Shown: positions 3,970-36,660, numbered from the stretch's first letter. The stretch is 64,000 nucleotides of DNA from Salinicoccus halitifaciens (GCF_021026095.1 NZ_JAJNCU010000002.1:62001-126000); one strand, 5' to 3'. The notes: generated by a model from the letters alone, not told the origin. Made by a program: numbers and translations.

Positions 3970-4139
3970 ACCATCTCTACCTTCCTTGATCCACTTTTTC
4001 AAACGTGGAAAATCTATCTTAGTCATTATACAATCAATAATGTTTCCATGCACTACATCTACCCTAAAAAGTAGAATAATAAAAGAGCCTGTGATAAAAT
4101 TAGTGAATGCAATTTATGAGATTAAATTTGAAAAATATA

Positions 4140-6774: not shown

Positions 6775-6791
6775 AAAACAGGAGAGTCATT

Positions 6792-7934: not shown

Positions 7935-7935
7935 A

Positions 7936-15164: not shown

Positions 15165-15194
15165 AAATCCCTTATAAATATGGTGGTGGAAAAC

Positions 15195-16532
15195 ATGGCG
15201 GATGAACGGAAGAAAGAGAAGCGGGCGCTCATCAGGGCATTGATGCAGGCGGAAGCTGAGATCAATAAGACGGAGCGGGAAAAAGAAGCGGCCGATAAAC
15301 GGATCAAACAAATTAAAAGCAGCAGGACGTACCAGACGGCCGGACCTGTGAAAAAGTTCAGAACAGGTCAGGACGACGCGCAGGAAATCACCCTGCTCCG
15401 GGAAGAGCTGGATAAAGTCAAAAAAGAGCTTGAAGAGACGAAAGAAGCGCTGCATCTCTCAAAGCTTGACAGTCGTTCGATGAACAGCGTCAAAGTACGC
15501 CATTCCGTCAGGGAAATGAAGAATGATGCGCGCCTCCTCGATTACATAGAAGGCGCGGTCAGGGAGAAACGGCAGCATGATGAAAATTACATCGATGCGC
15601 TGACGTATGCCGCAAGGCTCTTCATGCATGAACGGGACGAGCTCAGGGAAGCGGTTTATTCGACGCTTCTTCAAGGGTTCAAGATCGAGGACATCCCGGA
15701 GTTCATGATGCGTGAAGCATTGACCGGCAGCCTGCAGCTGAAGCAGGCGGCTTCCTTCAGGGCTTCTCTGAACATGCGGATCAGGCAGCATCAGCTGACC
15801 GGAGGACTGCCTGAGTACGTACTCGATGATAAGCAGGCGGCCTATGCGTTCATTGATAAACTCGCAATCAGACGGCCGTGGACTTTGGATAAGACTTACA
15901 AAGCGGATGAACTGCCGCTTGAACCCCGGACAGTCGTGAAGCCGAGGGACGGCGCAGGGGCGAGGGGTGTGTACCTGATCCATGACTTTAATGATATAAT
16001 CGACCTCAAGCGTGCGAGGGCGATCGACAGTAAAGAAGCCTTGACCGCGAGCATGAAGACAGACATTGAAAGCGGCTGGGTGGAAGAAGACGATTGGATG
16101 ATGGAAGAACTCATCATGGAAGACAGAGAGAATAAAATCCCGGGAAGCGACATCAAGTTCTACTGCTTCTATGGCGAAGTCGGCCTGGTGCTTGAGATCA
16201 AACGATATCCCGAACTGAAATACTGCTGGTGGACGGCAGACGGCGAACGGGTGCATACGGGCAAGTATGACAACGACCCGTTCAAGGGTGCAGGTGTCAG
16301 CTGGGAAGAAATTGAAATGGCACAAAAAATCAGCAAAGAAATCCCGGCGCCGTTCATCAGAATCGACTTCCTGAGATCTGAAGACGGTCTTGTGTTCGGC
16401 GAATTTACGCCGAAACCCGGCAACTATGATGAGTTTGATACGGAGACAGATCAGTGGATGGGCGATATGTACCTTGAAGCAGAAGGCCGGTTGTTCCTGG
16501 ATTTGATGGAGCAGAAGACGTTCGTTTTTTAA
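15195..16532 (+). CDS. TupA-like ATP-grasp protein
   Basis: A 445-residue protein. Residues 1-95 are charged coiled coil containing SSRTYQTAGPVKKF, a variant of the S-x-SW[KR]xTxPLR tail found at the C-termini of later proteins. The ATP-grasp part has VVKPRDGAGARGVYLI (ATP-binding loop), SDIKFYCFYGEVG, LEIKRYPELKYCWW and FIRIDFLRSEDG then FGEFTPKPGNYDEFD. These fit the TupA-like ATP-grasp family, named after the teichuronopeptide gene tupA of alkaliphilic Bacillus. The expected reaction is ATP-driven amide or peptide bond formation on a wall polymer. I prefer ATG 15195, as GGTGGTGG lies just upstream; ATG 15180 is possible. Confidence 0.7.
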   Translation: MADERKKEKRALIRALMQAEAEINKTEREKEAADKRIKQIKSSRTYQTAGPVKKFRTGQDDAQEITLLREELDKVKKELEETKEALHLSKLDSRSMNSVKVRHSVREMKNDARLLDYIEGAVREKRQHDENYIDALTYAARLFMHERDELREAVYSTLLQGFKIEDIPEFMMREALTGSLQLKQAASFRASLNMRIRQHQLTGGLPEYVLDDKQAAYAFIDKLAIRRPWTLDKTYKADELPLEPRTVVKPRDGAGARGVYLIHDFNDIIDLKRARAIDSKEALTASMKTDIESGWVEEDDWMMEELIMEDRENKIPGSDIKFYCFYGEVGLVLEIKRYPELKYCWWTADGERVHTGKYDNDPFKGAGVSWEEIEMAQKISKEIPAPFIRIDFLRSEDGLVFGEFTPKPGNYDEFDTETDQWMGDMYLEAEGRLFLDLMEQKTFVF

Positions 16533-16588
16533 GAAATTGACCGGAAATGAGAATCTCCAATATTAAGGTCTCGGAAAGGGGCAAGATG

Positions 16589-18004
16589 ATGTCTGAAGAT
16601 TTTAAGAAGTACAGGAAGCTTGGAATGCGGACTAATTCCGCAAGTTTTAAAAGTTGGTATGATGCTGGATTATTACAAGAGATTGACGAAGATTTTCTTC
16701 TCGAAGCCAAAGCTTACTGGAGTGAAAAATCAAGTTTGAAACCGAGGACTGCGCTGCATCTTGCTTTTATGAATCTGACTGGGCGAAAAGATGTTCGATT
16801 GGTTCCCACAAATATAATGAACTATGAAGTACTCCCGGTCTTCAATGATTATAATCTGACGGAGTTTTACGGAGACAAAAATATATACGACCTGGTGATA
16901 AAGCCTCCGAACTCTGCAGTATCCGTTTTGAGGGCGATTAATGGAAAATACTTCAATCCCGGGTACGATCAAATCGATATCGAGGAAGCCTCCGGACTTC
17001 TGAGGGATGCGGGCACCAATATGATTATCAAGCCCAGCCGGAGCAACAATGGCACCGGTATTTCGAGACTCTCTTTTCAGGATGATAAGATTTTTATAGG
17101 TGATGAAGAGATAAGAATTGATGCACTACTGAAAAAATTTGGTGGTAATTTCATTGTCCAGGAAATGCTGAAACAACATCCGAATATGGCGGCACCGCAC
17201 CCCGGTTCAGTCAATACAATCAGGATGGTGACATTCAGATGGAAGAACGAGATAAGGTACTTGCTGGCTTTTGCACGATTCGGCAGTGACGGTGATATCA
17301 GGGACAACGCAAATGTTGAAAGCAGTCCAAGGGTAGGCGTGAAGGATAATGGTGAATTTTTTGAATATGGAATTGGTCAAAGTGGGGAAAAGTTCACGGA
17401 ACATCCGACGACCGGTTTCAAAATCGCGGACCTTCAGCCGATACCAAATTATGAGGAATTCAAACAATTTGTAAAAGACACCCATAAGAACTTCCTGCAC
17501 CTAGATTTTGTGTCTTGGGATATCGCAGTCGGTGTTGACTGGAAGCCTGTCTTCATCGAAGCGAATTTTGCAGGATCGACCTCTTTTTATCAATTGGTTT
17601 CACAAAGGTCCATTTTCGGAGATATGACAGAGGAAGTAATGGCTCATGTGAAGGCTAAAGTCATCAAAAACCACAAAGTTCCGATGGGCAAATATTTCAA
17701 TAAGAGAAAGAAAAAACTAAAAGCCGGTATGGAAAGAGAAAAAGAGAAAAAAGAAGCAGAAATCATCGAGCTTAAAAAGAAAATTAAAGAAGCTTCTGAA
17801 AAAAGGTCAGCGGCTGTCATAGAAAAGAAAATCGAAACCCTTCAAAGAGATAAAGAAAGATTGGAAACCAAAACTAAAAAAGAAAAGAAAGAATTAATGA
17901 GAGAATTGAATCATTATAAAAAGAAATATGAAAAGGTGGAACAAAGTACAAGCTGGCGGATCACCGGCCCTGTCCGGAAAGTGAAGTCGCTGCTTAAGAA
18001 ATGA
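16589..18004 (+). CDS. Sugar-transfer-associated ATP-grasp protein
   Basis: A 471-residue protein. The ATP-grasp core (about 90-360) shows MIIKPSRSNNGTGISRL, FIVQEMLKQHPNMAAPHPGS, VNTIRMVTFRW, NANVESSPRVGVKDNGEF and FVSWDIAVGVDWKPVFIEAN. These resemble the sugar-transfer-associated ATP-grasp family (Pfam ATPgrasp_ST). The C-terminal 90 residues are Lys/Glu-rich coiled coil ending in STSWRITGPVRKVKSLLKK. Its close paralogue lies at 19640. AAAGGGG precedes ATG 16586 and 16589; I choose 16589 to match that paralogue. From here the DNA becomes AT-rich compared with the genes before it. Substrate unknown; ligation of an amino or acyl group to the polymer is likely. Confidence 0.75.
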   Translation: MSEDFKKYRKLGMRTNSASFKSWYDAGLLQEIDEDFLLEAKAYWSEKSSLKPRTALHLAFMNLTGRKDVRLVPTNIMNYEVLPVFNDYNLTEFYGDKNIYDLVIKPPNSAVSVLRAINGKYFNPGYDQIDIEEASGLLRDAGTNMIIKPSRSNNGTGISRLSFQDDKIFIGDEEIRIDALLKKFGGNFIVQEMLKQHPNMAAPHPGSVNTIRMVTFRWKNEIRYLLAFARFGSDGDIRDNANVESSPRVGVKDNGEFFEYGIGQSGEKFTEHPTTGFKIADLQPIPNYEEFKQFVKDTHKNFLHLDFVSWDIAVGVDWKPVFIEANFAGSTSFYQLVSQRSIFGDMTEEVMAHVKAKVIKNHKVPMGKYFNKRKKKLKAGMEREKEKKEAEIIELKKKIKEASEKRSAAVIEKKIETLQRDKERLETKTKKEKKELMRELNHYKKKYEKVEQSTSWRITGPVRKVKSLLKK

Positions 18005-18051
18005 AGTGCTGCACTTTATAAAAAATCACGTATACAGGTTGGAGAGAGATT

Positions 18052-19488
18052 ATGACGGAAATTTACCCGAGCTGGCTCACTAAAGAAATGCTTCGTGGAA
18101 TACGCAGATTCAATATAGATGCTTATTTGGTCGCCTTGGAAGGCTGGAGAAGGGGATTATCCCTGACTTTTTACGACCATCGGACAGACTTGACGGATAT
18201 GAAACTGATCGGTTTTGATCCCATCGGAAAGCTTTTCTCCCTCTCTTCAAGTGATAAAACGCATTTTTTTTACAGGACACGTGGAGATATGATCTCGAAT
18301 GAAGCAGTAGATACAGGAACAGACAAGGAAGCGACTAAAAAGCTGCTTACTGAAGCAGGTGTGACAGTCCCCAGGGGATTCAGCTTCACATCTGACACCC
18401 CACTGGAGGAGCTCAAGAAATCAATGGTAGGGATGGAAAAGCCATTTGTACTCAAACCTACATTTGGCAGTCTCGGTAAAGGTGTGACAACGAACATCCA
18501 ATCGGAGGAAACTTTTTTCCAAAGCCTTGAATATGCACAGAAGACCTATGATTATAAAGATTTTCTGGCAGAGCAGCATATTCTTGGAGATGATGTGCGT
18601 GTATATGTTGTAGGTGATGAAGTTGTGGCGGCGACTAAAAGGATTCCTGCAAATATTACCGGAGATGGACAGAGTACAATTGAAGAACTGGTCGAAGAGA
18701 AGAATGAAATGCGTAAATTGAATCCACATATGTCCACACGACTCATAAAAGTAGATGACAGAATGAAGGGTTACTTATCGAATCAGGGCTTAGATCTGAT
18801 GAGTGTGCCGGAAAGCGGGCAAACTGTCTTTTTAAAAGGTGAGAGCAATATATCAGCCGGTGGAGATTCAATAGATATCACGGATGAATTGGGTGAAGAA
18901 GCAGCCTTGACGGCAGTTGAGGCAGTCAGGGCGATTCCCGGCCTCCATCATGCGGGTGTGGATTTGATTGTAAATGAGGGTAAAGGTACAGTGATTGAAA
19001 TCAATTCCACCGGCAGCACCGCGCTCCATACTTTCCCTCTGTACGGAGAGGCCCGAAATGTTTCAAAAAAAATCATCGATTATTATTTCCCTGAAACGAA
19101 GGATATGACCACAAGCGATTGTTTATTCTTCAATTATACAGGTATACTTAAACAGTTGAGGGCCAACCAGTTGAAGAAGGTCGAAATCACCGACGCACCT
19201 GTCGGTGAAATATATGCCAAAAGATATGTCGTTTCAGGCAAAGTCCAAAAAGTAGGGTACAGAATATGGGCGGAGAACCAGGCGATAGCGCATGGACTTC
19301 ATGGATATGCCAAAAATTTGAAGAATGGGGAAGTCGTGGTTGTAGTGGCAGGACCGGAAAAAGAAAAAGTTGATGCATTCAAAGAGGCATGCTATGAAGG
19401 GCCAGAAAGGGCCAGAGTGCATAATGTCAAAGAATACATCTGGAAAAAAGAAGTCAAAGTTGGATTTGAAATTAAATCTGCAAAATGA
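18052..19488 (+). CDS. CphA-like ATP-grasp ligase fused to an intact acylphosphatase domain
   Basis: A 478-residue protein with three parts. The N-terminal domain carries VALEGWRRGLSLTF and a THFFYRTRGDMI strand. The ATP-grasp domain (about 90-350) resembles the ligase half of cyanophycin synthetase: AGVTVPRG, FVLKPTFGSLGKGV, ANITGDGQSTIEELVEEKN, NISAGGDSIDITDE and VIEINSTG. The acylphosphatase domain (391-475) reads VSGKVQKVGYR and HGYAKN; Arg404 and Asn422 are 18 residues apart, as in true acylphosphatases (R23/N41). There is no coiled-coil tail. ATP-grasp enzymes pass through an acyl phosphate, so the fused domain could be an editing or hydrolytic module; that is inference. Confidence 0.82.
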   Translation: MTEIYPSWLTKEMLRGIRRFNIDAYLVALEGWRRGLSLTFYDHRTDLTDMKLIGFDPIGKLFSLSSSDKTHFFYRTRGDMISNEAVDTGTDKEATKKLLTEAGVTVPRGFSFTSDTPLEELKKSMVGMEKPFVLKPTFGSLGKGVTTNIQSEETFFQSLEYAQKTYDYKDFLAEQHILGDDVRVYVVGDEVVAATKRIPANITGDGQSTIEELVEEKNEMRKLNPHMSTRLIKVDDRMKGYLSNQGLDLMSVPESGQTVFLKGESNISAGGDSIDITDELGEEAALTAVEAVRAIPGLHHAGVDLIVNEGKGTVIEINSTGSTALHTFPLYGEARNVSKKIIDYYFPETKDMTTSDCLFFNYTGILKQLRANQLKKVEITDAPVGEIYAKRYVVSGKVQKVGYRIWAENQAIAHGLHGYAKNLKNGEVVVVVAGPEKEKVDAFKEACYEGPERARVHNVKEYIWKKEVKVGFEIKSAK

Positions 19489-19639
19489 AAAGATACCGAT
19501 AACGGAAAATAGGGAATTACATATATACTCTGTGTTAATATATTATGTAATCAAACATGTCAGAAATCCTCGAAAGCATATAGCAGATCGGTATATTCAC
19601 TTGTAATTTACTTTTTATGAAAGTATGGGAGAAATGAGT

Positions 19640-21061
19640 ATGATAGAGAACACTAAAAAATTCAAAGAATTGGGAATCAGCACCACCACCAAAATTAATA
19701 AAGATTGGTATGACGCAGGACTATTGGATAACATTGATGAAAGTTTCCTGAAAGAAGTGGACAGCTATTGGAGTCCCAAGACTGAAAGAAAGATAGATAA
19801 AGGTTTATATACTGCTTTCATGAATTTGCACGGCATCAAGGAACCGAAATTGATAACCGGAAGTGTAATGCGTTATGAAGTGCTTCCCGTCTTCAATGAT
19901 TACGATATGACAGGCTATTATGGGGATAAAAATATCTATGACTTGATCATCGATCGCTCCCGCTCTGCTGTGACCGTCGTAAGAAGTATAAGGGGACAAT
20001 ACTTTGATGCTGATTACAATACCATATCGCCTGAAACTGCACTTGAATTGTTATCAAAAAATGAAAATGGTCTCATAATTAAGCCGAGTAAAGGTAACAA
20101 CGGCAGTGGTATAGCGAAGCTGGAGTTAAAGGGAGATAAAGTACTTTTCGAAGATAAATACATTTCGGTTGAACGACTTCTTAAAAAATTCAGAGGTAAC
20201 TTCATAGTGCAAGAAATGTTGAAACAACATCCCAATATGGCGGCACCGCATCCTGCATCGGTCAATACGATCAGAATGGTCACATTTAGATGGAATAACG
20301 AAATAAAATATTTATTGGCATTTGCACGTTTTGGCAGTGGCGACGACATAAGGGATAATGCGAATGTGGACAGCAGTCCACGTATAGGTGTCAAAGACAC
20401 AGGAGAATTTTTCGATTTTGGAATCGGACAAAGTGGGGAGAAGTTCACGGAACATCCAACGACCGGATTTAAATTTTCCGATCTTAAGCCGATTCCGAAT
20501 TATGAAGAATTCAAGAAATTCGTAACAGACAGTCATAAGCATTTCATACACTTGGATTTCGTCTCCTGGGATATTGCGGTGGGCACTGACGGCAAACCGG
20601 TCTTCATAGAAGCGAACTTCGCAGGCTCAACTGCTTTTTATCAGCTAGTTTCCCAAAAACCGATGTTCGGTGATATGACGGAAGAAGTTATGAAATATGT
20701 CAAAGAAACCATCGACACCAAAAGTCCTAAGCTGATGAAAAAGCACCGGAAACGCATTGAGAAAAAAGAGTTGGAAAGCCTCAAGAAAGAACTTGGACAA
20801 AACGAAAGACTGGTCAAAGAATTGAAAAAGGAATTAAATCAGTTGAAAAATGATTCGACCTCGTCCAAAGAATTGAAAAATAAGTATAATAATATGAAAA
20901 GGTCTATGGACACAATCAGAGATGAAACAGAAAAAGAGAAACAGCAACTGATCAAAGAGAGAGATAAATACAAGAAAAAATATGAAGAGATGGCTGGGAG
21001 CACAAGCTGGCGCATTACAGAACCGGTTCGTAAGGTCGGTTCAGTGTTTAAGAAAAAATAA
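19640..21061 (+). CDS. Sugar-transfer-associated ATP-grasp protein, second copy
   Basis: A 473-residue paralogue of the 16589 protein, with near-identical core motifs: LIIKPSKGNNGSGIAKL, FIVQEMLKQHPNMAAPHPAS, NANVDSSPRIGVKDTGEF and FVSWDIAVGTDGKPVFIEAN. The C-terminal coiled coil is about as long and ends in STSWRITEPVRKVGSVFKKK. I start at ATG 19640, which has GGGAG 8 nt upstream; ATG 19625 and 19634 are too far from or too close to that site. It is followed, like the first copy, by a CphA-like gene, so a two-gene block appears duplicated. The 150 bp before it hold no clear promoter. Confidence 0.75.
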   Translation: MIENTKKFKELGISTTTKINKDWYDAGLLDNIDESFLKEVDSYWSPKTERKIDKGLYTAFMNLHGIKEPKLITGSVMRYEVLPVFNDYDMTGYYGDKNIYDLIIDRSRSAVTVVRSIRGQYFDADYNTISPETALELLSKNENGLIIKPSKGNNGSGIAKLELKGDKVLFEDKYISVERLLKKFRGNFIVQEMLKQHPNMAAPHPASVNTIRMVTFRWNNEIKYLLAFARFGSGDDIRDNANVDSSPRIGVKDTGEFFDFGIGQSGEKFTEHPTTGFKFSDLKPIPNYEEFKKFVTDSHKHFIHLDFVSWDIAVGTDGKPVFIEANFAGSTAFYQLVSQKPMFGDMTEEVMKYVKETIDTKSPKLMKKHRKRIEKKELESLKKELGQNERLVKELKKELNQLKNDSTSSKELKNKYNNMKRSMDTIRDETEKEKQQLIKERDKYKKKYEEMAGSTSWRITEPVRKVGSVFKKK

Positions 21062-21118
21062 GCAGCGTGACGGGTTGGTATGTCCCAGCTATAAATATCT
21101 CACCATGAACACCAGAAG

Positions 21119-21156
21119 TACCCACAGACAAGGAAAGACATCTTATTCTGTGGGTA
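21119..21156. other. 10-bp hairpin in the ATP-grasp intergenic region
   Basis: TACCCACAGA at 21119-21128 pairs perfectly with TCTGTGGGTA at 21147-21156 around an 18-nt loop, about 95 nt before the next start codon. It lacks a T run, so it is not a classic terminator. It may be an RNA processing or stability element, or an operator. Confidence 0.5.
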
Positions 21157-21249
21157 TTACTTATGAAATGAGAAGTGGTTAAGACGGCTCAACAACTGAT
21201 GGAAAATCTGCATTCAAAGGGAACTTTCCAGCTTAAAAGGAGAAATATA

Positions 21250-22686
21250 ATGGATTATACAGGATTATACAATAATTTTTCGGCAATCAATAAACAGATG
21301 CCAAGACGGGCAAAAGGTTTTGGGCTGGTCACCTATTCAATCGCTCTCGAAGCGTGGAGAAGAGGACTCGAATTGAAATTCTACACAGGATTCGTCAGAA
21401 ATCAGGCGAGGATCTACTACCGTCTGAAAAGTGAAGAGCGGGAGCACACTTTCAGAATCAGCTTTGGCGGCAATATGGATAAAGAAGTCAGGAAAATCGT
21501 GAACAGCAAAGAACAGGCAAAAGAATATTTGGCCAAAGGGGATGTGCCGGTTCCCCGGGGCGGAGCGGTTTCTATAGAAAACGGTTATGAAGAAGTTTAC
21601 TCGATTATTGAGTCGACAGGGTATCCTGCAGTCGTAAAGCCGATCAATGGGAGACTCGGACAGGGTGTCCACACAGATATCAAGAATCAAAAAGAATTGG
21701 AAGCGGCTTTAAATAACTTGGAAGAACTCGGGTATAAGGACATTATGGTGGAAAATTTCATAGTGGGGGAAGATACACGGGTCTATGTGACAAAGGATGA
21801 AGTCATTGCAGCATATAAAAGGGAACCTGCCAATGTCATCGGTGACGGCAAAAGGACGATCAAAGAATTGATTGGGGTTAAAAATAAAATCCGTCAGACC
21901 AATCCTCACGCCAAGAAGAATAAATTGGAAATTACAGGCAAGGTGAAAGCCTACCTTAAAGAAAAAGGCTTCTCCCTTACAAGTATACCTGCCAAGGATG
22001 AAGTGGTATATCTCACTGACAGTACATTGCATATCGACGGCTGTGAAGTCGTAGATGTTACAGATGAGCTGACACCAAAAATCCGGGAAATTGCCAGGAA
22101 TGCAGTGAAAGCCATTCCAGGTATGGAACTGAGCGGATTGGATATTATGGTTAATAAAGAGAAAGATGAAGGGTATGTGCTGGAATTGAATGCCAGCCCT
22201 AATATTGCCGGCCATCTATTTCCCATGATTGGTGAACCAAGAGACGTCCACAAAGCATTCATAGATCATTTCTTTCCGGAAACCAAAGAGAGGGACTCGG
22301 GAAGATTCCAAAATTTCGTCTTTGATTTTGATAACATCAATAAAATCCTGAAAAGCGGAGTAGTGACAGAAGTCACTGTCCCTCGACTTCCTGAAGGTGA
22401 GTTGAATGCAAAGACTTTTGAAATATCCGGTAATGTCTCCAAACTAGTTCCATTGATACGCCGCCGGGCAGTAGGGACGAAATTGGGTGGTGAAGTGGTA
22501 AAAGAAGAAAAAGACCTTCTGATCATCAAAGTGGCAGGAGCTTCAAACGATATAGAAAAATTTACAGAGTATATGCTCAGCAAGAAAAATTCTAAAATAA
22601 ACGTGAAGATATCTGATGATCAAAACTGGGAAGGTGAATATCAATACTACTTCAAATCTTTGATTGAATTTGAAGTGACAAAGTAA
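21250..22686 (+). CDS. CphA-like ATP-grasp protein with degenerate acylphosphatase-like domain
   Basis: A 478-residue protein. The N-terminal domain has TYSIALEAWRRGLELKF and TFRISFGGNMDKEVRKIV. The ATP-grasp shows VVKPINGRLGQGVHTDI, DIMVENFIVGEDTRVYV, ANVIGDGKRTIKELI and VLELNASPNIAGHLFP. The C-terminal 90 residues keep the acylphosphatase strand order (FEISGNVSKL, LLIIKVAGASNDIEKF), but the Arg and Asn positions are Leu and Glu. There is no SWKxTxPLR tail. I start at ATG 21250, 7 nt after AAAAGGAG; a GTG at 21175 is far from any good site. Its closest local relative is the protein at 32314. A terminator follows. Confidence 0.8.
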   Translation: MDYTGLYNNFSAINKQMPRRAKGFGLVTYSIALEAWRRGLELKFYTGFVRNQARIYYRLKSEEREHTFRISFGGNMDKEVRKIVNSKEQAKEYLAKGDVPVPRGGAVSIENGYEEVYSIIESTGYPAVVKPINGRLGQGVHTDIKNQKELEAALNNLEELGYKDIMVENFIVGEDTRVYVTKDEVIAAYKREPANVIGDGKRTIKELIGVKNKIRQTNPHAKKNKLEITGKVKAYLKEKGFSLTSIPAKDEVVYLTDSTLHIDGCEVVDVTDELTPKIREIARNAVKAIPGMELSGLDIMVNKEKDEGYVLELNASPNIAGHLFPMIGEPRDVHKAFIDHFFPETKERDSGRFQNFVFDFDNINKILKSGVVTEVTVPRLPEGELNAKTFEISGNVSKLVPLIRRRAVGTKLGGEVVKEEKDLLIIKVAGASNDIEKFTEYMLSKKNSKINVKISDDQNWEGEYQYYFKSLIEFEVTK

Positions 22687-22697
22687 ATTCATCTAAG

Positions 22698-22728
22698 AAG
22701 AGTCCGGCTTTTCAGCCGGGCTCTTTAT
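22698..22728 (+). terminator. Intrinsic terminator inside the ATP-grasp array
   Basis: GAGTCCGGCT at 22700-22709 pairs with AGCCGGGCTC at 22714-22723 around TTTC, then TTTA. It follows the stop codon at 22686 and divides the array into at least two transcription units. Confidence 0.8.
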
Positions 22729-22785
22729 TAATATATATTAAATACCGTAGACAGCTGGATTAAAATTTATCCCGCAATTTGTATA

Positions 22786-22794
22786 TGATATAAT
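22786..22794 (+). promoter_or_regulatory. Extended -10 promoter element in the ATP-grasp array
   Basis: TGATATAAT is a perfect extended -10. The -35 region 17 bp upstream (TTTATC) is weak. It follows the terminator at 22698-22728 and probably drives the genes from 22867 to 32149. Confidence 0.6.
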
Positions 22795-22866
22795 TCTTTG
22801 GAGTGTGACATATCATAAAGTGACCACTGAATTCTTAAATTTCGAGAGAAAGTGAAAAGAAATCCC

Positions 22867-23967: not shown

Positions 23968-24031
23968 TCAAATATAAAAAAGAACGACTGTAAAAGGTTC
24001 ACCGAACCAGGCAACGTTAGGGGGGAACGAT

Positions 24032-25324: not shown

Positions 25325-25406
25325 GAGAATATGAGCATGGCCGGTCTGACATGAGTTCAGGATGGAAAATGTCGATCGGTCTTCCCTGGAAGAGGAGATT
25401 CTGAAA

Positions 25407-26996: not shown

Positions 26997-27034
26997 AACT
27001 GGCTTTCTGCAAAGTTTTGGAGGGAAGTTTTAAC

Positions 27035-28630: not shown

Positions 28631-28672
28631 TATGAGTCTTTTAACGATACGGAATTCGGAGGTTACATTATA

Positions 28673-30286
28673 ATGAGCGAAACAGAATTCAGATGGATGC
28701 CTCATCATGAAGGTGCCGTACCACCGGCTGGCCAGGGAAAAAGGATAAGCACCTATACAGTGGCGCTTGAAGGATGGCGCAGAGGCTTGAATTTAAAATA
28801 TTACAGTCATTTTGATGAAAAAAATCTATTGAAGGTCAGGTATTCATTGAGCGATGGCACAAAAACCCATCATTTCCAACTCTCTATGGGAGATGGTGTG
28901 ACGCAAGAGGCCTTCGATATTTGTGATAATAAAGAAACCACAAAAAAATACTTGAGAAATGCAGATGTACCAGTGCCTGTTCCCACAGGCAAAATGTTCA
29001 ATGAAAACTCAACCGATGAAGAGATTCTGGCATTTGCCGAAACGATGGAGTTTCCAATCGTACTCAAGCCCACCGACGGCAATGCGGGAAACGGCGTTTT
29101 CGCGAATATCCAGACCATGGAAGAGCTTAAAGACATCATACCGCATGTCCGTGAAGAGCTCGGGTTCAAAGAGGTAATTGTAGAGGATTACATTCCCGGA
29201 AGAGAGTTCAGAGTCGTTGTCATAGGTGACCGGGTGCTCGGGGCAATGATCCGCAGACCGGCGAGTGTTCTGGGGGATGGCAAGCACACTATCAAAGAAT
29301 TAATCGCCCAGACAAATGAAATTAGAATGACAAACCCTCATTTAACGAGCAGATTAATTAAAGTGGACCGGGAAATCCGTACAATGCTCAAGAGAAAAGG
29401 CTATAAGTTAAATACAATTCCTGATGAAGGAGAACGGGTTTATCTGCGTGAAAAGAGTAATTTATCGAAAGGTGGGGACGCTATTGATGTGACGGATAAA
29501 TTGACCGAAAACCTCAAAGCGATCGCTAGAAATGTCGGACCTGCCATACCCGGATTGGAACATTACGGGGTTGATATGATTGTGGATGAAGAGAATGACA
29601 CCGGAGTTATTCTGGAAGTTAATGCAAGACCGGGTTTTGGAGGACATCTCTTCCCGATGGAGGGGACTCCAAGAGATTTCGCCAAAGAAATCATTGACTA
29701 TTATTTTCCTAAGACGAAAGGCAAAGGTAGATCATGGCTGTATTTTGATTTCGACAGCGCTCTGGAACCAATTAGAAACAGGACTGCCTCCTCGGTGGAA
29801 ATTACGACTATTTCACCCAAAAAACTTCGCGGTAAAAAATTTATCCTGTCTGGAAAAGTTATCGTGCCCGGTTATCGCGGATGGATAAAACAGCAGGCGA
29901 AATATAGAAATTTAAATGGATATGTTGAAAATAAAGAAGATGGCACAGTTGAAGTCCTGGCTGCAGGGACCGATCCGCTGGTTCTCGAAGGTTTCGTAAA
30001 TAAGTGCTTTAAGGGTCCCAAAGATAAAGATGTGGAAGTGACGGCTATACATGAAGAGAATTGGGATAAGCCGGTTAAACTAGGCTTTGACATCATTAAT
30101 CGCAAAACCGATTTAACGCCTTTGGAACTCGAAAAGGAAATCGAGAAGCTTAAAACTGATAATGAAAAATTGGAAATGAAGAATCAGTATCTCATCGACA
30201 GGCATAATCGTTTCAAAGCGAGAAAAACCTGGAAGATGACCGCACCTTTAAGATTTGCATATAAGCTTATAAGTAGGAAAAAATAA
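28673..30286 (+). CDS. CphA-like ATP-grasp ligase fused to an apparently intact acylphosphatase domain
   Basis: A 537-residue protein. N-terminal TYTVALEGWRRGLNLKYY and HHFQLSMGDGVTQEAF lead to the ATP-grasp: IVLKPTDGNAGNGVFANI, VIVEDYIPGREFRVVV, ASVLGDGKHTIKELIAQTN, LSKGGDAIDVTDKLT and VILEVNARPGFGGHLFP. The acylphosphatase domain reads FILSGKVIVPGYRGW and NGYVEN; Arg402 and Asn420 keep the 18-residue spacing of true acylphosphatases. With the 18052 protein it is one of only two in the array to do so. The end is coiled coil and RKTWKMTAPLRFAYKLI. GGAGG precedes ATG at 10 nt. Substrate unknown. Confidence 0.82.
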   Translation: MSETEFRWMPHHEGAVPPAGQGKRISTYTVALEGWRRGLNLKYYSHFDEKNLLKVRYSLSDGTKTHHFQLSMGDGVTQEAFDICDNKETTKKYLRNADVPVPVPTGKMFNENSTDEEILAFAETMEFPIVLKPTDGNAGNGVFANIQTMEELKDIIPHVREELGFKEVIVEDYIPGREFRVVVIGDRVLGAMIRRPASVLGDGKHTIKELIAQTNEIRMTNPHLTSRLIKVDREIRTMLKRKGYKLNTIPDEGERVYLREKSNLSKGGDAIDVTDKLTENLKAIARNVGPAIPGLEHYGVDMIVDEENDTGVILEVNARPGFGGHLFPMEGTPRDFAKEIIDYYFPKTKGKGRSWLYFDFDSALEPIRNRTASSVEITTISPKKLRGKKFILSGKVIVPGYRGWIKQQAKYRNLNGYVENKEDGTVEVLAAGTDPLVLEGFVNKCFKGPKDKDVEVTAIHEENWDKPVKLGFDIINRKTDLTPLELEKEIEKLKTDNEKLEMKNQYLIDRHNRFKARKTWKMTAPLRFAYKLISRKK

Positions 30287-30331
30287 ATCACGATCATCGT
30301 TTATCCAACTAATATGATTGGGGGATGTCAC

Positions 30332-32149
30332 ATGGTAAACACGATTGAAGAATCGTTGGAACATCTGCAGGAAGCAGTGCCTCCGGAAGGATACGGAAAC
30401 AAACTGAGCATGTATTTGATTGCCCTCGAAGCCTGGAGAAGGGGCATTAAAGTTAATTTTTACACTATTGAGAACCCGGACAATAAGATTCTGGTGAGAT
30501 ACTCTTTAGAGCTGGGCGAGAAAGTGCATCACTTCGAGTCTTCATTGGGTGACAAGCTCTCCAGAGAAGCATTCGACGTATGTGAGTATAAAGATTTAAC
30601 CAAGAAATATTTGAAGGACGCGGGCGTTAAAGTGCCAGAAGGTAAAGTTTTCAGTACCTCAGAAGATGAAAGTGTCGTCTTGGAATTTGTTAAAACCTTG
30701 TCATTTCCCATAGTGGTCAAACCTTTAGATGAGAATGCCGGTAAAGGTGTGTTCTCAAATATTAGTTCCGAAAAGGACCTTTTGGATATTCTGTCTTACC
30801 TTCGCGATGATCTTGGATATGCCTACATCATGATTGAAGAGTTTATACCAGGAACAGAGTACCGGATTTTAACAGTGGATGGTAAAGTCGAAGGTGCTGT
30901 CAACAGGATACCGGCAAATATCATAGGGAATGGAGAAGACACGATACAAAAGCTGATCAGGCTGAAAAATCGAAGCAAAGCTGATAATCCAGCTCTGTCC
31001 AAAAAAAGAATCAGGGTTGATAAAGAAGTTCAGAGAATCATTGAGAGTCAAGGTTATACTCTGGAGAGTGTGCTCGAGGAAGGCGAAAGATTATTCTTGC
31101 GGACCAAATCGAACATCTCTGCCGGCGGAGACCCGGTGGAAATCACTGAGAACCTCTCAAAAGAGATCATAAGCACAGCTGAAAAAGCAACACAGGCGGT
31201 GCCCGGATTAAATATCGCAGGGTTGGATATGATTATCGATCCTGATACGGGTGAGCCTACGGTTATAGAAGTCAATACCAAGCCGATGATTGGTTTGCAT
31301 GTATTTCCTGTGGAAGGTACCGCAAAAGATGTTGTGAAGCCGATTGTTGATTTTTATTTTCCGGAGACGAAAGAAACGGAGCGATCCAATTTATATTTTG
31401 ATTTCGATGCTAAAATTGCGCCTCTTGACAATCTGACTGTTTACGAGGTCCAGGTCCATCCGCTTAAAAATGCAGGGCCCAAATTCACAAGGAAGTATGA
31501 AGTGAAACTCAGCGAAGCCAAGAGTGGCCTATCGGCTGCCATTAGGCTGAAAGCTTTAAAGTTGGGGATTCACGGTTATGTCAACAGAATCAGTTCAGAC
31601 TGTTATGAGATTGTGGCTGCAGGTGAAAATGAGACGGTGCTTGATAAATTCATAGGATATTTTTCTGCTGAAGATTCGGATTTCAATGTCTCAGAAATCG
31701 AAGAACAGATCTGGGAAAAATCCGTGAATACTGGATTTGTCATTAAGAAAGTGACAGTGGAAGAGCTGGAAGACAGACTGAAAAAAGAGCAAAAGAGATA
31801 TGAGATCCTCCATGAAAAATTGGATCAGGCAGAAAAACAGCTGTTGAACGAGGAAGAGAAAACGGCCGGACTCCTTGAGAAAATCGAAGCGCTGCAAGCG
31901 GAAATCGATGAATTCAAAGAGAGTTTCGATGCACTCAATAAGAAGTATATCTCCGCAGTTTTGAATCTGGGTGAAAAAGAAAGGGCATTGATCAGCTTTG
32001 AAAACACCATGGGAGAGAAAATCAAGGCTCTGGAAACTGAGATTGTTCAGCTAAAAAAGAAATATAAAGATACTGTGAATAGTAAGTCCTGGAAACTGAC
32101 CCGGCCTTTAAGGAGATATAACCCGGTCGGCAAAAGCAGGAAGAAATAA
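30332..32149 (+). CDS. CphA-like ATP-grasp ligase with long coiled-coil tail
   Basis: A 605-residue protein, the longest of the set. It has YLIALEAWRRGIKVNFY, HHFESSLGDKLSREAFDV, AGVKVPEGK, IVVKPLDENAGKGVFSNI, IMIEEFIPGTEYRILTV, ANIIGNGEDTIQKLIRLKN, ISAGGDPVEITENLS and VIEVNTKPMIGLHVFP. The usual GDG triplet is GNG. The acylphosphatase-like domain lacks Arg and Asn at the expected places. Residues from about 480 to 590 are a long heptad-like coiled coil, ending in NSKSWKLTRPLRRYNPVG. I start at ATG 30332, 6-7 nt after GGGGGA; ATG 30314 lies before that site. A terminator follows directly. Confidence 0.78.
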   Translation: MVNTIEESLEHLQEAVPPEGYGNKLSMYLIALEAWRRGIKVNFYTIENPDNKILVRYSLELGEKVHHFESSLGDKLSREAFDVCEYKDLTKKYLKDAGVKVPEGKVFSTSEDESVVLEFVKTLSFPIVVKPLDENAGKGVFSNISSEKDLLDILSYLRDDLGYAYIMIEEFIPGTEYRILTVDGKVEGAVNRIPANIIGNGEDTIQKLIRLKNRSKADNPALSKKRIRVDKEVQRIIESQGYTLESVLEEGERLFLRTKSNISAGGDPVEITENLSKEIISTAEKATQAVPGLNIAGLDMIIDPDTGEPTVIEVNTKPMIGLHVFPVEGTAKDVVKPIVDFYFPETKETERSNLYFDFDAKIAPLDNLTVYEVQVHPLKNAGPKFTRKYEVKLSEAKSGLSAAIRLKALKLGIHGYVNRISSDCYEIVAAGENETVLDKFIGYFSAEDSDFNVSEIEEQIWEKSVNTGFVIKKVTVEELEDRLKKEQKRYEILHEKLDQAEKQLLNEEEKTAGLLEKIEALQAEIDEFKESFDALNKKYISAVLNLGEKERALISFENTMGEKIKALETEIVQLKKKYKDTVNSKSWKLTRPLRRYNPVGKSRKK

Positions 32150-32155
32150 AATGGG

Positions 32156-32187
32156 GAGCCTTTATTTTAAATAAAGGTTCTTTTTTA
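32156..32187 (+). terminator. Intrinsic terminator
   Basis: GAGCCTTTAT at 32156-32165 (one G-T pair) folds with ATAAAGGTTC at 32171-32180, followed by TTTTTT. It ends the central ATP-grasp transcription unit. Confidence 0.85.
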
Positions 32188-32237
32188 GCCTTTTTAATCG
32201 TAAACAGTGAAACAGTAAAATAAAGATGTACATTTAC

Positions 32238-32267
32238 TTGACAGTATCGGTTAGAAAAAATTATGAT
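32238..32267 (+). promoter_or_regulatory. Sigma-A-type promoter before the ATP-grasp gene at 32314
   Basis: A perfect TTGACA at 32238-32243 and TATGAT at 32262-32267 with an 18-bp spacer. It lies between a terminator and the next start codon, 47 bp upstream of the ATG. This is the best-matching promoter in the array. Confidence 0.75.
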
Positions 32268-32313
32268 AAGTCCAATACAGTACTTAATAGGGTTGTAAAA
32301 AAAGGGGTAAATT

Positions 32314-33924
32314 ATGAATCAGAAAAAATTCTTTAATGATTATTCAGCAATCCAAAAGCAACTTCCCGCCCAAGCCAAAGGGCTTCCGCTAATCACTTAT
32401 TCAATCACGCTTGAAGCGTGGCGAAGAGGGATTGAGGTCAGCTTTTTCAGTGCAGCTGCAAAAAACAGGCAAAGTACATACTATACTTTGAAGAATGCGG
32501 GGATAGAATACAATTTCCGCCTCTCTTTCGGAGGCTTGATGGAAAAAGCGGCGAGGAAAATCGTGAATGATAAAGCGGAGACAAAAAAATATCTAAAAGC
32601 TGCAGATATTTCTGTTCCCGAGGGACGAAGCATTCAGTTGAACAACAATCTGGAAGAGATTGTGGAATATGCGGCTTCCATCGGTTTTCCTGTGGTCGCG
32701 AAGCCTCTTGATGCACGAAATGCAACAGGAGTTTTCACCGATCTTAAGAATCGCGAGGCCCTCGAAGGTGCTCTTAAGATTTTAAGGGAAGACTTAAATT
32801 GTGGAGAAGTGATTGTCGAGCAGTACGTCAAGGGCGAAGATACAAGAGTTTATGTCATCGAAGATGAAGTGATCGCAGCCTATATCAGGCGACCGGCGAA
32901 TGTAATAGGGGATGGCCGGAAAAACATTGAAGAGCTGATAAAAGAGAAAAACGAGATACGGCAAAATAACCCTCATTTGAAAAAATTCAACATCGAAATA
33001 GACGATAAATTATTGTCTTATCTCAAGGACAATAGTTTGAGCCTGACAAGTGTTCCGGAAGACGGAGAAAGGGTTTATCTGAGCAAAAGCACACTTCATC
33101 CGGACGGATGTGAAACGGTCGATGTGACGGACGAACTCTCAGACAAAATGAAAGCTCTGGCGGTGGAAGCATTGAAGGCCATACCTGGCATGAAGGTCAG
33201 CGGAATAGATATAATTGTTGACCGGAGTGAAGATAAAGGATATATATTGGAGCTGAATGGTGCTCCAAATATTTGCGGACATATCTATCCGATGGAAGGA
33301 GAACCGAAAGATGTGCCTAAGGCATTGATCGATTACCACTTCCCTGAAACGGCGGATAAGACAGTTGATAACCATGAATATTTCACTTTCGATCTGGATA
33401 CTGTTTCCAAAACTCTGAAGAGCGGAGCGGTCAAGCGTGTTACACTGCCTGCTTTACCTGAGGGAAAACTTGCATCGATGAAGATTGCAGTCAGCGGTTA
33501 TACTGAAAAAAACATTTCGGATATTCATCGTACTGCAGTCAGGTTACAACTTGGAGGGAAAATCATCAGGAAAGCTAATAAAAAATTAATCGTGAAGGTC
33601 GCCGGCAAGAAAGACAAAGTAAAAGAATTCAGCAAAATCATACTCAGAAAGATCGGTCCAGGTGCGGAAGTGATTGAAGAGAATCGTTGGTACGGCGCTT
33701 ATCCATATTATTTCAAAGCACCTTCCATAGATAAGTCGAAAGAGACATCCCAGGCTATGAAGCTAAGATCAGAAAATATCAAATTGAAGGAATCTGTATC
33801 CAAGCTAAAGGATATCGAAAAAGAAAACCAACGTCTTTTAAAGGAAATAGACGAATTGAAAAGCAGCCGTTCTTGGAAAGTGACCAAGCCTTTAAGAAGC
33901 GTCAAGTCAAGACTGATAAATTAA
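32314..33924 (+). CDS. CphA-like ATP-grasp ligase with acylphosphatase-like domain and coiled-coil tail
   Basis: A 536-residue protein, closest locally to the 21250 protein: ITYSITLEAWRRGIEVSFF, NFRLSFGGLMEKAARKI, VVAKPLDARNATGVFTDL, VIVEQYVKGEDTRVYV, ANVIGDGRKNIEELIKEKN and ILELNGAPNICGHIYP. The ATP loop has lost some glycines. The acylphosphatase-like domain (KIAVSGYTEKNISD) has Asp where the catalytic Arg should be. Unlike its relative, it carries a coiled coil and the tail SSRSWKVTKPLRSVKSRL. It is a monocistronic unit with its own strong promoter and terminator, so it is probably regulated apart from the others. Confidence 0.78.
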   Translation: MNQKKFFNDYSAIQKQLPAQAKGLPLITYSITLEAWRRGIEVSFFSAAAKNRQSTYYTLKNAGIEYNFRLSFGGLMEKAARKIVNDKAETKKYLKAADISVPEGRSIQLNNNLEEIVEYAASIGFPVVAKPLDARNATGVFTDLKNREALEGALKILREDLNCGEVIVEQYVKGEDTRVYVIEDEVIAAYIRRPANVIGDGRKNIEELIKEKNEIRQNNPHLKKFNIEIDDKLLSYLKDNSLSLTSVPEDGERVYLSKSTLHPDGCETVDVTDELSDKMKALAVEALKAIPGMKVSGIDIIVDRSEDKGYILELNGAPNICGHIYPMEGEPKDVPKALIDYHFPETADKTVDNHEYFTFDLDTVSKTLKSGAVKRVTLPALPEGKLASMKIAVSGYTEKNISDIHRTAVRLQLGGKIIRKANKKLIVKVAGKKDKVKEFSKIILRKIGPGAEVIEENRWYGAYPYYFKAPSIDKSKETSQAMKLRSENIKLKESVSKLKDIEKENQRLLKEIDELKSSRSWKVTKPLRSVKSRLIN

Positions 33925-33935
33925 AAAGTGTAAAC

Positions 33936-33970
33936 GTCCCGTAAACAATAAAGAGTTTACGGGACATTTC
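33936..33970 (+). terminator. Intrinsic terminator (short T tract)
   Basis: An 11-bp perfect stem, GTCCCGTAAAC against GTTTACGGGAC, with an 8-nt loop. The following T tract is short (ATTTC). It lies just after the gene ending at 33924. Confidence 0.7.
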
Positions 33971-34028
33971 ATATAGATGAGGCTCTTTATTCAAAGATAT
34001 ATCACACCCTTTGTATAAGCATCTTTCA

Positions 34029-34475
34029 TTATAGCGCTTTTTCTGAAATGTCATAAACCTCATGATAAGGTTTCGATTTCAGCACACTCTCATCACGGTC
34101 GAGACCTTTGTCTGTCCCTCGTTTTTTGTGTGCATGTGAGTAGGCTTCGGAGTCTTGCCAATTCCTGAACGCCTCTTCAGATGCCCATTGGGTCAGGACG
34201 ATATAGATGTCACTGTCAAGCGGACGGGAAACTCTTATGGCTTTAAAGCCTTCTTCATTTTCAATCTTCTTCGGGCGGTTTAGAAATCTTTCTTCAAATT
34301 TCTCCCGTCCTGCGGGTTTGACGGGGATGCAGTTCAGGACGATGGTGCCGCTGTTTTCCAGTCTGCCGGACTGGTCGATGATTTCGTACTGGTCATCGCC
34401 GATTTGAATGTTTGTGCCTTCTTCTTTTACTTCGATCGTATCTTCATTGTCGTTTTGTTTAAGAGTGATAATAAT
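34029..34475 (-). CDS. HmoB-like haem-degrading monooxygenase (ABM domain), non-canonical start
   Basis: An open frame of about 148 residues. It contains YEIIDQSGRLENSGTIVLN, GREKFEERFLNRPKKIENE, GFKAIRVSRPLDSDIYIVLT and QWASEEAFRNWQDSEAYSHA followed by HKKRG, which match Bacillus HmoB closely as I recall it. HmoB opens haem to release iron. No in-frame ATG, GTG or TTG exists until near the C-terminus, and a stop (TAA) lies upstream. GGAGG (34485-34489) sits 9 nt before an ATT codon at 34473-34475, the best-placed start; a CTG at 34482-34484 would give MNVIII but abuts the ribosome site. Either a rare start codon is used or the start codon has been lost. Function is likely, expression uncertain. 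Confidence 0.72.
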   Translation of the reverse strand: MIITLKQNDNEDTIEVKEEGTNIQIGDDQYEIIDQSGRLENSGTIVLNCIPVKPAGREKFEERFLNRPKKIENEEGFKAIRVSRPLDSDIYIVLTQWASEEAFRNWQDSEAYSHAHKKRGTDKGLDRDESVLKSKPYHEVYDISEKAL

Positions 34476-34513
34476 GACGTTCAGCCTCCAAAATTATAAT
34501 AGATGATGTTAAT

Positions 34514-34981
34514 TCAACCTTCCAATTCCCCGAAAGCCTCTTTCAGCGTCTTCTGCCTGAAGTCGAAGATTTCCTCGAGTCGCTTTTCCACCATCAGCTT
34601 GTGGGCGGCGCGGCCGATGATCTGGAACGGGAGGATATAGTTCACTGTATCGATGATTTCCACACCGCCTTCAATCTCGCGGAAATGGTGCTGGTGGTGC
34701 CAGAATTTGAACGGGCCGAAGCGCTGTTCATCAACAAAATATCTACCTTCTTCCACATGTGTGATCTCGGTGATCCATTTGACGGGAAACTTCGGGAAAG
34801 GTTCGATATTATATTGTATGATCATGCCGGCATACATGCCGGGGAAGTCCTCGCCAATCATCTTGAATGGCATGTCCCCCGGGGTGATTTCCTCAAGGTT
34901 CTGCGGGTTGGAGAAGAAGGACCACGCTTCTTCCGGGGTGACGGGTAATTTCTGATGACGTGTCAAAGTATACATCTTCAT
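34514..34981 (-). CDS. SRPBCC family protein
   Basis: A 155-residue protein of the START/Bet v 1-like fold, which forms a hydrophobic ligand cavity. It has LPVTPEEAWSFFSNPQNLEE and ITPGDMPFKM at the N-terminus, VKWITEITHVEEGRYFVDEQ and FGPFKFWHHQHHF in the middle, and a long C-terminal helix (RAAHKLMVEKRLEEIFDFRQ). Members are often annotated cell-division inhibitor or cyclase/dehydrase, without firm function. It reads on the minus strand together with the HmoB-like gene, which begins 38 nt further on and may be co-transcribed. It interrupts the ATP-grasp array. Confidence 0.82.
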   Translation of the reverse strand: MKMYTLTRHQKLPVTPEEAWSFFSNPQNLEEITPGDMPFKMIGEDFPGMYAGMIIQYNIEPFPKFPVKWITEITHVEEGRYFVDEQRFGPFKFWHHQHHFREIEGGVEIIDTVNYILPFQIIGRAAHKLMVEKRLEEIFDFRQKTLKEAFGELEG

Positions 34982-35133
34982 TTGATATACTCCTTTTTCA
35001 ATTCACTTTTACGATGCCGTTTATCCGTTTGAATCTTTTCGTAACGATTCCCTTCCATATATAAATTGAAACGTTCGGAGGATTACGTATATAATTCATT
35101 ATAAGGTACATAAGGGGAAAGAGGAGATTTTTC

Positions 35134-36660
35134 ATGGCATTGAAAGCACTTGATATTTATGAAAACATCATGCTGAACCATCCTGTGGAAGCGCAGGGGG
35201 CAAGCATCAGCATGTACAGGATGACACTCGAAGCATGGCGGCGGGGGATTGAAGTGAGGTTCATGACGGTGTACGTGAAGAACCGCATCAAGATTCGGCA
35301 TAAGCTGTCGTACGGAGGCCGGGAATACAGGTTCCAGCTGTCCCTCGGCGACAAGGTCGCAAAAGAGGCAAGGCAGATCGGTAAAAGCAAGGAACTGACG
35401 AAGCAGCATCTGGCTGCAGCGGGTGTTTCGGTGCCGGAGGGTAAAGTCATCTCCATTCAAAATAATGATTTTGGGGAAGCTTTGGAATATGCGGAATCAA
35501 TCGGCTATCCGGTGATCGTCAAACCGGCACACGCGAGCCTTGCGATCGGGGTGCGGACGAACCTCAAGGACAGGGCGTCACTGGCCGAAGCGTTGGAACA
35601 TATCCACGGTGAACTGGGCTACACTGAAATCATCGTGGAGCGTCATGCAGAGGGGTTCGATACGCGGGCCTATGTCATTGAAAATGAAATGATTGCTGCG
35701 TTCAAGCGGATTCCTGCCCATATTGAAGGGGACGGCGGGCATACCATCAGGCAGCTGATAGAACTTAAGAATCAACGGCGTAAATTGAATCCGCACTTGA
35801 GCAACAGCCAAATAAAAATGGATGACGCGCTCATTGATTACATCGGCCGTCATGGTTACAATCTTGATTCTGTACTTGGGAAAGGTGAAAAAATCAACCT
35901 GACGGACAGTACATTCGCAAGCAATGCGGCGGACACGGTGGATATCACCGATGAAGTCACCGAGGATTATAAAATGACCGCAGTCAACGCGGTGAAGAGC
36001 ATACCCGGTATGAACATGGGCGGTGTCGATATCATCAGGGATCCGGAGAAGGATGTCAATAAAGTGCTTGAAATCAACTGCAGGCCGGACCTCGGCGGCC
36101 ATATGTTCCCGATTTACGGGGAATCAAGGGATGTCGCAAAGAAAATCGTCGATTACTATTTTCCCGAGACGGCATCAATCGACACCGGCATCAATGAATA
36201 CTTCACTTTCGACTTCGATGAGATCTTCCGCTTCCTTAAAAAAGGCATAGTGAAGGAAGTCATATTGCCGCCGCTTCCGAAGAGCAAGGTTGAAAATGTC
36301 CACCTGGAGCTGAAAGGCAATATTAACTTTTACCGCACTGTCCTGTTCAATTCGGCAGCTGGTCACAGGCTTGGCGGGAATATAAGGATGCTTGGGAAAG
36401 ATAGGGCGAAGATGGTGGTCGCCGGGACGACGAAACATCTGACATCATTTTTACAGGAACTCATGAAAATTGCCCCTAAGCTGGATATTACAGTTACAGC
36501 CCAGAACGAATGGGACTCGCTGCTGATGTATAAGTTTGAAATTCCGGAAACGGCATCCATCCCTCTCAACCGCCTGAGGAGAGAGAATATGGACATGCGG
36601 AAAGAAATTGAAGCCCTGAAAAAGGAGCTTGCCGACGTGAAAAAAGGCAGTCCTCTATAA
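35134..36660 (+). CDS. CphA-like ATP-grasp protein, GC-rich outlying member of the array
   Basis: A 508-residue protein, close in sequence to that at 25407: RMTLEAWRRGIEVRF, YRFQLSLGDKVAKEARQI, IVKPAHASLAIGVRTNL, IIVERHAEGFDTRAYV, GDGGHTIRQLIELKN and VLEINCRPDLGGHMFP. The acylphosphatase-like domain (VHLELKGNINFYRT) is degenerate. It ends in a short coiled coil and KKGSPL, so the SWKxTxPLR tail is missing. Its DNA is GC-rich (33 of 60 in 35281-35340) where the 25407 gene is AT-rich (16 of 60 in 25561-25620), which points to different histories. It is monocistronic, with a GAGGAG ribosome site and its own terminator. Confidence 0.78.
   Translation: MALKALDIYENIMLNHPVEAQGASISMYRMTLEAWRRGIEVRFMTVYVKNRIKIRHKLSYGGREYRFQLSLGDKVAKEARQIGKSKELTKQHLAAAGVSVPEGKVISIQNNDFGEALEYAESIGYPVIVKPAHASLAIGVRTNLKDRASLAEALEHIHGELGYTEIIVERHAEGFDTRAYVIENEMIAAFKRIPAHIEGDGGHTIRQLIELKNQRRKLNPHLSNSQIKMDDALIDYIGRHGYNLDSVLGKGEKINLTDSTFASNAADTVDITDEVTEDYKMTAVNAVKSIPGMNMGGVDIIRDPEKDVNKVLEINCRPDLGGHMFPIYGESRDVAKKIVDYYFPETASIDTGINEYFTFDFDEIFRFLKKGIVKEVILPPLPKSKVENVHLELKGNINFYRTVLFNSAAGHRLGGNIRMLGKDRAKMVVAGTTKHLTSFLQELMKIAPKLDITVTAQNEWDSLLMYKFEIPETASIPLNRLRRENMDMRKEIEALKKELADVKKGSPL

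Follow-up and report, generated by a model that had tools for sequence, protein, structure and literature searches.

Introduction

Teichuronopeptide is a cell-wall polymer tied to life at high pH. In H. halodurans C-125 it consists of poly-γ-L-glutamate together with polyglucuronic acid, and a single homologue of this strain's TupA protein was known, OB2920 from O. iheyensis (PMC8153356). No pgs/cap operon accounts for the poly-γ-L-glutamate of B. halodurans, for which an ATP-grasp synthetase has been proposed (PMC3815933), and no enzymes for the peptide part of teichuronopeptide were identified in the literature that we examined. In the capsule of C. jejuni, glucuronate has been shown to be amidated by a ligase with a TupA domain (PMC11800379). 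Here we describe a locus of Salinicoccus halitifaciens in which 13 open reading frames of ATP-grasp families lie on the plus strand at 15180-36660, nine of them encoding proteins with a WRRG signature (WRRG proteins). Positions refer to the window, i.e., the whole analysed stretch of 64,000 nucleotides (G000:C4:62001-126000 of a 2.68-Mb genome). Our reading, which we hold with moderate confidence, is that the locus makes a uronic-acid wall polymer with peptide chains of the teichuronopeptide kind, built by successive ATP-dependent ligases before export. Parts of such a system may already have been predicted by Iyer in 2009, in work whose abstract reportedly names capsular polymers and teichuronopeptides.

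The C-125 teichuronopeptide system resembles the window in its TupA-type gene, its uronic acid activation and its alkaliphile setting, and in the window the TupA-type gene likewise stands beside uronate activation and glycosyltransferase (GT) genes. The window differs by its eight intact WRRG proteins, one short ATP-grasp and two sugar-transfer-associated (ST) ATP-grasps. The cyanophycin synthetases CphA1 and CphA2 have the ATP-grasp (G) domain and the ATP, Mg, and acceptor-carboxylate residues in common with the WRRG proteins (model Z score of 30), whereas the latter lack the fused Mur-ligase domain, carry a C-terminal acylphosphatase-fold domain instead, and belong to a wall-polymer export operon. 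Cyanophycin synthesis itself was ruled out on the missing Mur domain and on H267 and R458 (CphA numbering), which are mostly absent. The C-terminal domain of C. jejuni Cj1438 is a TupA-like ATP-grasp working on surface-polymer glucuronate, as the window TupA is predicted to do, but there a single ligase adds serinol or ethanolamine phosphate and no WRRG array is present (PMC11800379). The pgs/cap operons for poly-γ-glutamate share PGA_cap (CapA/PgsA-like) and racemase genes with the sister WRRG operons of other genomes; the window locus, in contrast, has a glycopolymer and an ATP-binding cassette (ABC) exporter in place of a CapB/PgsB-type polymerase, and no Mur-type ligase of the CapB/PgsB kind was found among its scanned genes. 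With the teichuronic acid (tua) operon the window shares TuaD-like and TuaG-like genes, and it differs in its TagG/TagH-type ABC export and its ligase array.

ATP-grasp identity and catalytic residues

The nine WRRG proteins are predicted, from profiles, alignments and one model, to be ATP-grasp ligases of the cyanophycin synthetase type extended by an acylphosphatase-fold domain, one of them being catalytically dead. Their best curated match is cyanophycin synthetase, which the protein encoded at 28673-30286 (ortholog group delta) matches at 6e-72 (PDB 7wac at 9.5e-43); for the window paralogues tested, cyanophycin synthetase models score between 1e-60 and 1e-72. Since matches of this strength come together with recurrence in dozens of genomes, the array is not a chance assembly. 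The WRRG structure was modelled for 28673 (genes and their products are named below by their first position), the other WRRG proteins being assigned by profile and alignment. The AlphaFold2 model, computed from a 76-sequence alignment, has a predicted local distance difference test score (pLDDT) of 94.1. Its residues 17-351 match GshF (3ln6, Z 30.7) and CphA1 (7wae, Z 30.3), the WRRG motif lying in a helix (22-36) inside this ATP-grasp part, and residues 384-476 adopt the acylphosphatase fold (Z 16.8, root-mean-square deviation of 1.3 Å).

A preliminary description of the locus had counted thirteen ATP-grasp genes, namely one TupA-like, two ST, one short CphA-like and nine WRRG. This composition is borne out by the profiles (PF14305, PF14397, and cyanophycin synthetase), and the ATP-grasp identity is upheld on structural grounds by the profiles and the pLDDT-94 model of 28673, which matches CphA and GshF. 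All 13 frames were found; however, the first one starts at 15180 and not at 15195, 12 of the products look active, 24032-25324 is without the core, and 35134-36660 lies outside the operon.

The TupA-like ligase (15180-16532, PF14305 1.8e-68) has a long helical N-terminus. In its AlphaFold2 model (pLDDT of 85), residues 187-444 form an ATP-grasp domain (Z 12.2 to RimK), and K254, D324, R342, D396, and E408 are invariant across 36 homologues; a profile search for a solved TupA structure found none. In the WRRG proteins (residue numbering of 28673), the ATP-binding lysines, the Mg ligands and the asparagine, i.e., K87, K132, D301, E315, and N317, are present in eight of the nine window members as well as in the short CphA-like ATP-grasp (22852-23967; cyanophycin synthetase model 8.8e-41), which has neither the WRRG signature nor the acylphosphatase domain. 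Among 226 WRRG proteins compared, K87, K132, R180, D301, and E315 are kept in 225, but for single changes, and N317 in 224.

The sole protein of the 226 to have lost the whole catalytic set is the window's group alpha member (W1, 24032-25324). About 118 residues of its ATP-grasp core are gone through several in-frame gaps, and with them the equivalents of K87, K132, R180, D301, E315, and N317. As the reading frame remains open and the N-terminal part shares 60% identity with the orthologue of Lacicoccus alkaliphilus, the gene may persist as a non-catalytic protein. We take L. alkaliphilus, together with L. qingdaonensis and Salinicoccus kekensis, to form the genus group of the window genome. 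The short intact ATP-grasp 22852 directly adjoins the dead gene. In three relatives, a WRRG protein without the catalytic Lys, Arg, and Glu directly adjoins a MurF-like ligase (L091:14638-17449, L094:1773-4550, and L099:4628-7333; low-scoring proteins outside the set of 226). That a dead WRRG protein and its adjoining ligase work as a pair is a guess.

The catalytic Arg and Asn of acylphosphatases occur in the window only in 18052-19488 (group gamma) and 28673; across genomes they are found in 12 of 12 gamma, 14 of 23 delta, and none of the alpha or beta members. One may speculate that the domain clears stalled acyl phosphates in gamma and most delta proteins, as an editing activity, and that in the remaining proteins it probably serves as a module for binding. 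A search for fusions of ATP-grasp and acylphosphatase domains found no paper in the literature that we examined. The same two kinds of fold occur in reversed order at L049:13397-14956, where an acylphosphatase domain stands at the N-terminus of a YheC/D-type ATP-grasp. A C-terminal tail motif, S-x-S-W-x-x-T-x-P-x-R, which follows a predicted helix and is perhaps a docking or membrane tag, is shared by many WRRG and some ST ligases, e.g., 16547-18004 and 25362-26996.

Operon conservation and ortholog groups

When 84,980 species genomes were scanned, the best 80 hits, which were those retained, gave 66 loci. The carriers, some 60 species, are Bacillaceae, Salinicoccus and Lacicoccus, mostly halophiles or alkaliphiles, and the WRRG genes usually stand directly after the TupA gene. 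Almost every locus comes from a genus known to be halophilic, halotolerant or alkaliphilic. Two even samples, each counting the window genome, had full-length WRRG proteins in 2 of 399 genomes from Bacilli, where matches had to be better than 1e-100, and in 2 of 398 from the phylum; in an alkaliphile-rich family (41 genomes), WRRG was found in 5, operon-type TupA in 5, and both in 4. Presence is patchy among close relatives. The gene order Ugd-GT4-GT4-GT2-TagG-TagH-GT2-GT2-TupA-W-W-(W..), with W for WRRG, is conserved across families. Synteny in related genomes thus agrees with the preliminary description, the same kind of array recurring in dozens of genomes. Nor is the array unique: the window's nearest relatives in the same genus have 6-11 matches per genome and other Bacillaceae usually 2-6 copies.

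The sister operons contain further genes, including PGA_cap in 20 loci, an amino-acid racemase of the aspartate/cysteate type in five and a glutamate racemase in two, besides a MurF-like ligase, a PGA_cap-TupA fusion and a fusion of acylphosphatase with a YheCD ATP-grasp. Judged by their predicted functions, PGA_cap, racemases and Mur-type ligases are partners that a peptide-making pathway would need. The genome that we take to be O. iheyensis HTE831 (G527) has a single TupA-domain gene, found in the conserved operon alongside PGA_cap and four WRRG genes. As the only candidate, this gene is taken to be OB2920, which places the literature homologue of TupA in the TupA-WRRG type of operon.

Several further arrangements were seen. 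A GH127-like protein adjoins the ligase operons in eleven loci (e.g., L021:3459-5120). The same bacterial family also has loci of another kind (L103, L104, L105, L106, L109, and L110; e.g., L106:6024-9564), where between one and three CphA-like ATP-grasp ligases, 350-460 residues long and encoded on both strands, lie among glycosyltransferases, joined in L106 by a heparinase II/III-like protein. Outside the class Bacilli, genome G599 encodes WRRG in the vicinity of an ST-like ATP-grasp and a CphA-like protein of 936 residues (L146:10180-11772 and 15000-17810), TagG/TagH genes being close by (L147:396-2668); this locus is a distant version of the WRRG system. Carriage by phages or plasmids was considered and set aside: phage matches span no more than 50% of the query and plasmid matches no more than 68%, with identities around 30-35%; those that carry an annotation are CphA, and no WRRG was found in viral contigs.

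A tree of the 226 sequences resolves mostly well-supported WRRG groups that extend over genus boundaries. The first WRRG gene after TupA belongs to group alpha in 50 of 50 operons, and the second position is mostly held by beta (37) or zeta (9). The mutual information between position and group is 1.59 bits, where shuffling reaches at most 0.33; the figure is descriptive, since related genomes are not independent.

The groups also differ in their pockets. The residues for ATP, Mg, and the acceptor carboxylate are nearly invariant, and of the residues that bind Asp in CphA an equivalent of R323 is present and N394 is found in most groups, while the CphA pocket positions H267, N394, and 454-460, whose roles are described in PMC9427784, are group-specific and fairly constant within a group. 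In CphA numbering, alpha has F267/T454/Q456, beta L267/T454/Q456, and delta G or A267/R454/P455/G456/H460, and theta and eta2 are without N394. Such pockets fit the use of different substrates by different groups.

Probable exchange of the ligase cassette

Compared with S. kekensis, the operon genes GT2, TagG, TagH, GT2, GT2, and TupA have a synonymous divergence (pS) of 0.19-0.59, and 35134 with its right-hand neighbours one of 0.28-0.40, whereas every gene from 16547 to 33924 has a pS of 0.76-0.85, some of these being paired with S. kekensis paralogues where the orthologue is missing. The comparisons between orthologues (gamma, delta, epsilon, and the short gene) give equally high values. 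The guanine-plus-cytosine content (GC) is 0.39-0.43 in the cassette and 0.45-0.54 in the flanking operon genes. Two control pairs, L. qingdaonensis/YB14-2 and O. iheyensis/G530, have no such contrast, their ligases and flanks diverging alike. The ligase cassette 16547-33924 has thus probably been replaced between conserved flanks, in the fashion of capsule loci. Fast divergence in situ would be a less likely cause, given that synonymous sites are affected as well; these are saturated, which makes the ratio of nonsynonymous to synonymous substitution (dN/dS) unusable for the cassette.

Proposed pathway and alternatives

In the pathway that we consider reasonably probable, the two dehydrogenases would supply UDP-uronates, from which the glycosyltransferases would build a uronic-acid chain, presumably on a lipid carrier. 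The TupA-type ligase would then make the initial amide linkage, on the carboxylate of a uronate, for which the C. jejuni amidoligase is a precedent, and the WRRG ligases would add residues in succession by the chemistry of CphA and GshF: the terminal carboxylate of the growing chain would be phosphorylated by ATP, and the incoming amino acid would attack the acyl phosphate through its amino group. Different ancient ortholog groups would serve different residues or linkages, and the product would leave through the TagG/TagH-type exporter.

Several observations weigh against this pathway. The CphA residues that stabilise the acyl phosphate (His267) and bind Asp (Arg458) are mostly absent from the WRRG proteins. 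The window's first-position ligase, of group alpha, is dead, and the start of the peptide must therefore differ here; the window's own operon is also without racemase, PGA_cap, and Mur ligase. Finally, a genome that we take to be H. halodurans, from 99% identity to the RNase H of that species (G506), has neither WRRG nor operon-type TupA, its only TupA-domain protein being one of 292 residues in a different kind of locus. The assembly consists of many contigs and so probably represents a different strain from C-125. Any tie to the teichuronopeptide of known chemistry is therefore indirect.

A stronger form of the proposal, which we put forward tentatively, is an assembly line independent of ribosomes and nonribosomal peptide synthetases. 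Each ancient WRRG group would add one defined residue, the gene set and order would spell the peptide, and cassette exchange would rewrite it, like a peptide serotype. The preliminary description had suggested one enzyme per residue or linkage, and the ancient, position-fixed groups with their group-specific pockets agree with this for part of the array; the four theta duplicates, the dead gene and the gene outside the operon do not. The theta genes (21175-22686, 25362-26996, 32314-33924, and 35134-36660) form two pairs with 49-55% mutual identity and at most 42% to proteins outside the family. They are thus younger, family-specific duplicates and not ancient distinct steps, so that thirteen genes need not equal thirteen steps. 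Extending this to the whole array, as a recent tandem duplication without functional meaning, is scarcely credible: gamma, zeta, delta, and epsilon of the window are 45-58% identical to their orthologues in other families but at most 40% to any window paralogue, and all but one of the 226 proteins have the catalytic set, apart from single changes. Plain tandem duplication was accordingly rejected for these four groups, on identity and tree, and accepted for the theta genes.

It is also conceivable, although we regard it as rather unlikely, that the ligases are alternative or variable decorators, each attaching just one amino acid or amine to the uronic-acid polymer in amide linkage and so varying the surface for escape from phages or grazers, as serotype loci do. 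The probable exchange of the cassette between conserved flanks, the patchy presence among close relatives, the theta duplicates and the one-step amidation in C. jejuni would all suit such a role, but the fixed position and order of the ancient groups across many genera points to a coordinated pathway in most species. If instead all WRRG proteins extended a single homopolymer of glutamate or aspartate, with further copies raising the dose only, the poly-γ-L-glutamate of teichuronopeptide (PMC8153356, PMC3815933) and the homologous polymerases RimK and CphA would be natural parallels. This is improbable in view of the pocket residues, which are group-specific and conserved within each group, and of the operon positions that the groups hold.

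Gene content of the locus

Upstream of the ligases, the profile matches agree with the uronate dehydrogenases, TuaG-like and other glycosyltransferases and TagG/TagH-type exporter of the preliminary description, in an order conserved across families. A TviB-like nucleotide-sugar dehydrogenase, a putative source of amino-uronate, lies on the minus strand (2656-4053; NCBIfam NDP-sugDHase 1.4e-118, TviB model 4.3e-144 but below its cut-off). The operon, on the plus strand, has its conserved start at a TuaD-like UDP-glucose 6-dehydrogenase, the putative source of glucuronic acid (4204-5511; NCBIfam TuaD 1.1e-170, below cut-off, with NDP-sugDHase over cut-off). It continues with a GT4 and a GT4-like glycosyltransferase (5650-6774 and 6771-7934; PF00534 1.8e-41 and 1.3e-9), a TuaG-like GT2 enzyme (7897-8751; NCBIfam TuaG 2.6e-107, below cut-off), a TagG-like ABC-2 permease (8775-9554; PF01061 7.4e-11), a TagH-like ATPase with two ABC domains (9596-11284; TagH model 2.5e-105, over cut-off) and two large GT2-domain glycosyltransferases (11306-13144 and 13137-15164; PF00535 8.2e-34 and 6.4e-37), which precede TupA.

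Within the cassette, the ST ATP-grasps are encoded at 16547-18004 and 19625-21061 (PF14397 1.2e-34 and 1.7e-35), and the remaining WRRG ligases, assigned by profile and tree, are zeta (27017-28630) and epsilon (30314-32149). The last theta gene, 35134, forms a separate unit, set off from the array by about 1.2 kb with minus-strand genes. Its GC is 0.50 against 0.39-0.43 in the array, and its product is 92.5% identical to the S. kekensis orthologue (pS 0.40). The two minus-strand genes in between (33990-35133) look, by eye, like an IsdG/ABM monooxygenase and an SRPBCC protein, the latter (34514-34981) giving no match in Pfam.

Implications

In some 60 species, most of them halophiles or alkaliphiles and O. 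iheyensis HTE831 among them, the conserved TupA-WRRG operon offers candidates for the enzymes behind the peptide of teichuronopeptide. Peptide ligases whose amino-acid pockets have diverged naturally would be a further gain, as would the uncommon combination of an ATP-grasp ligase and an acylphosphatase fold in one protein.

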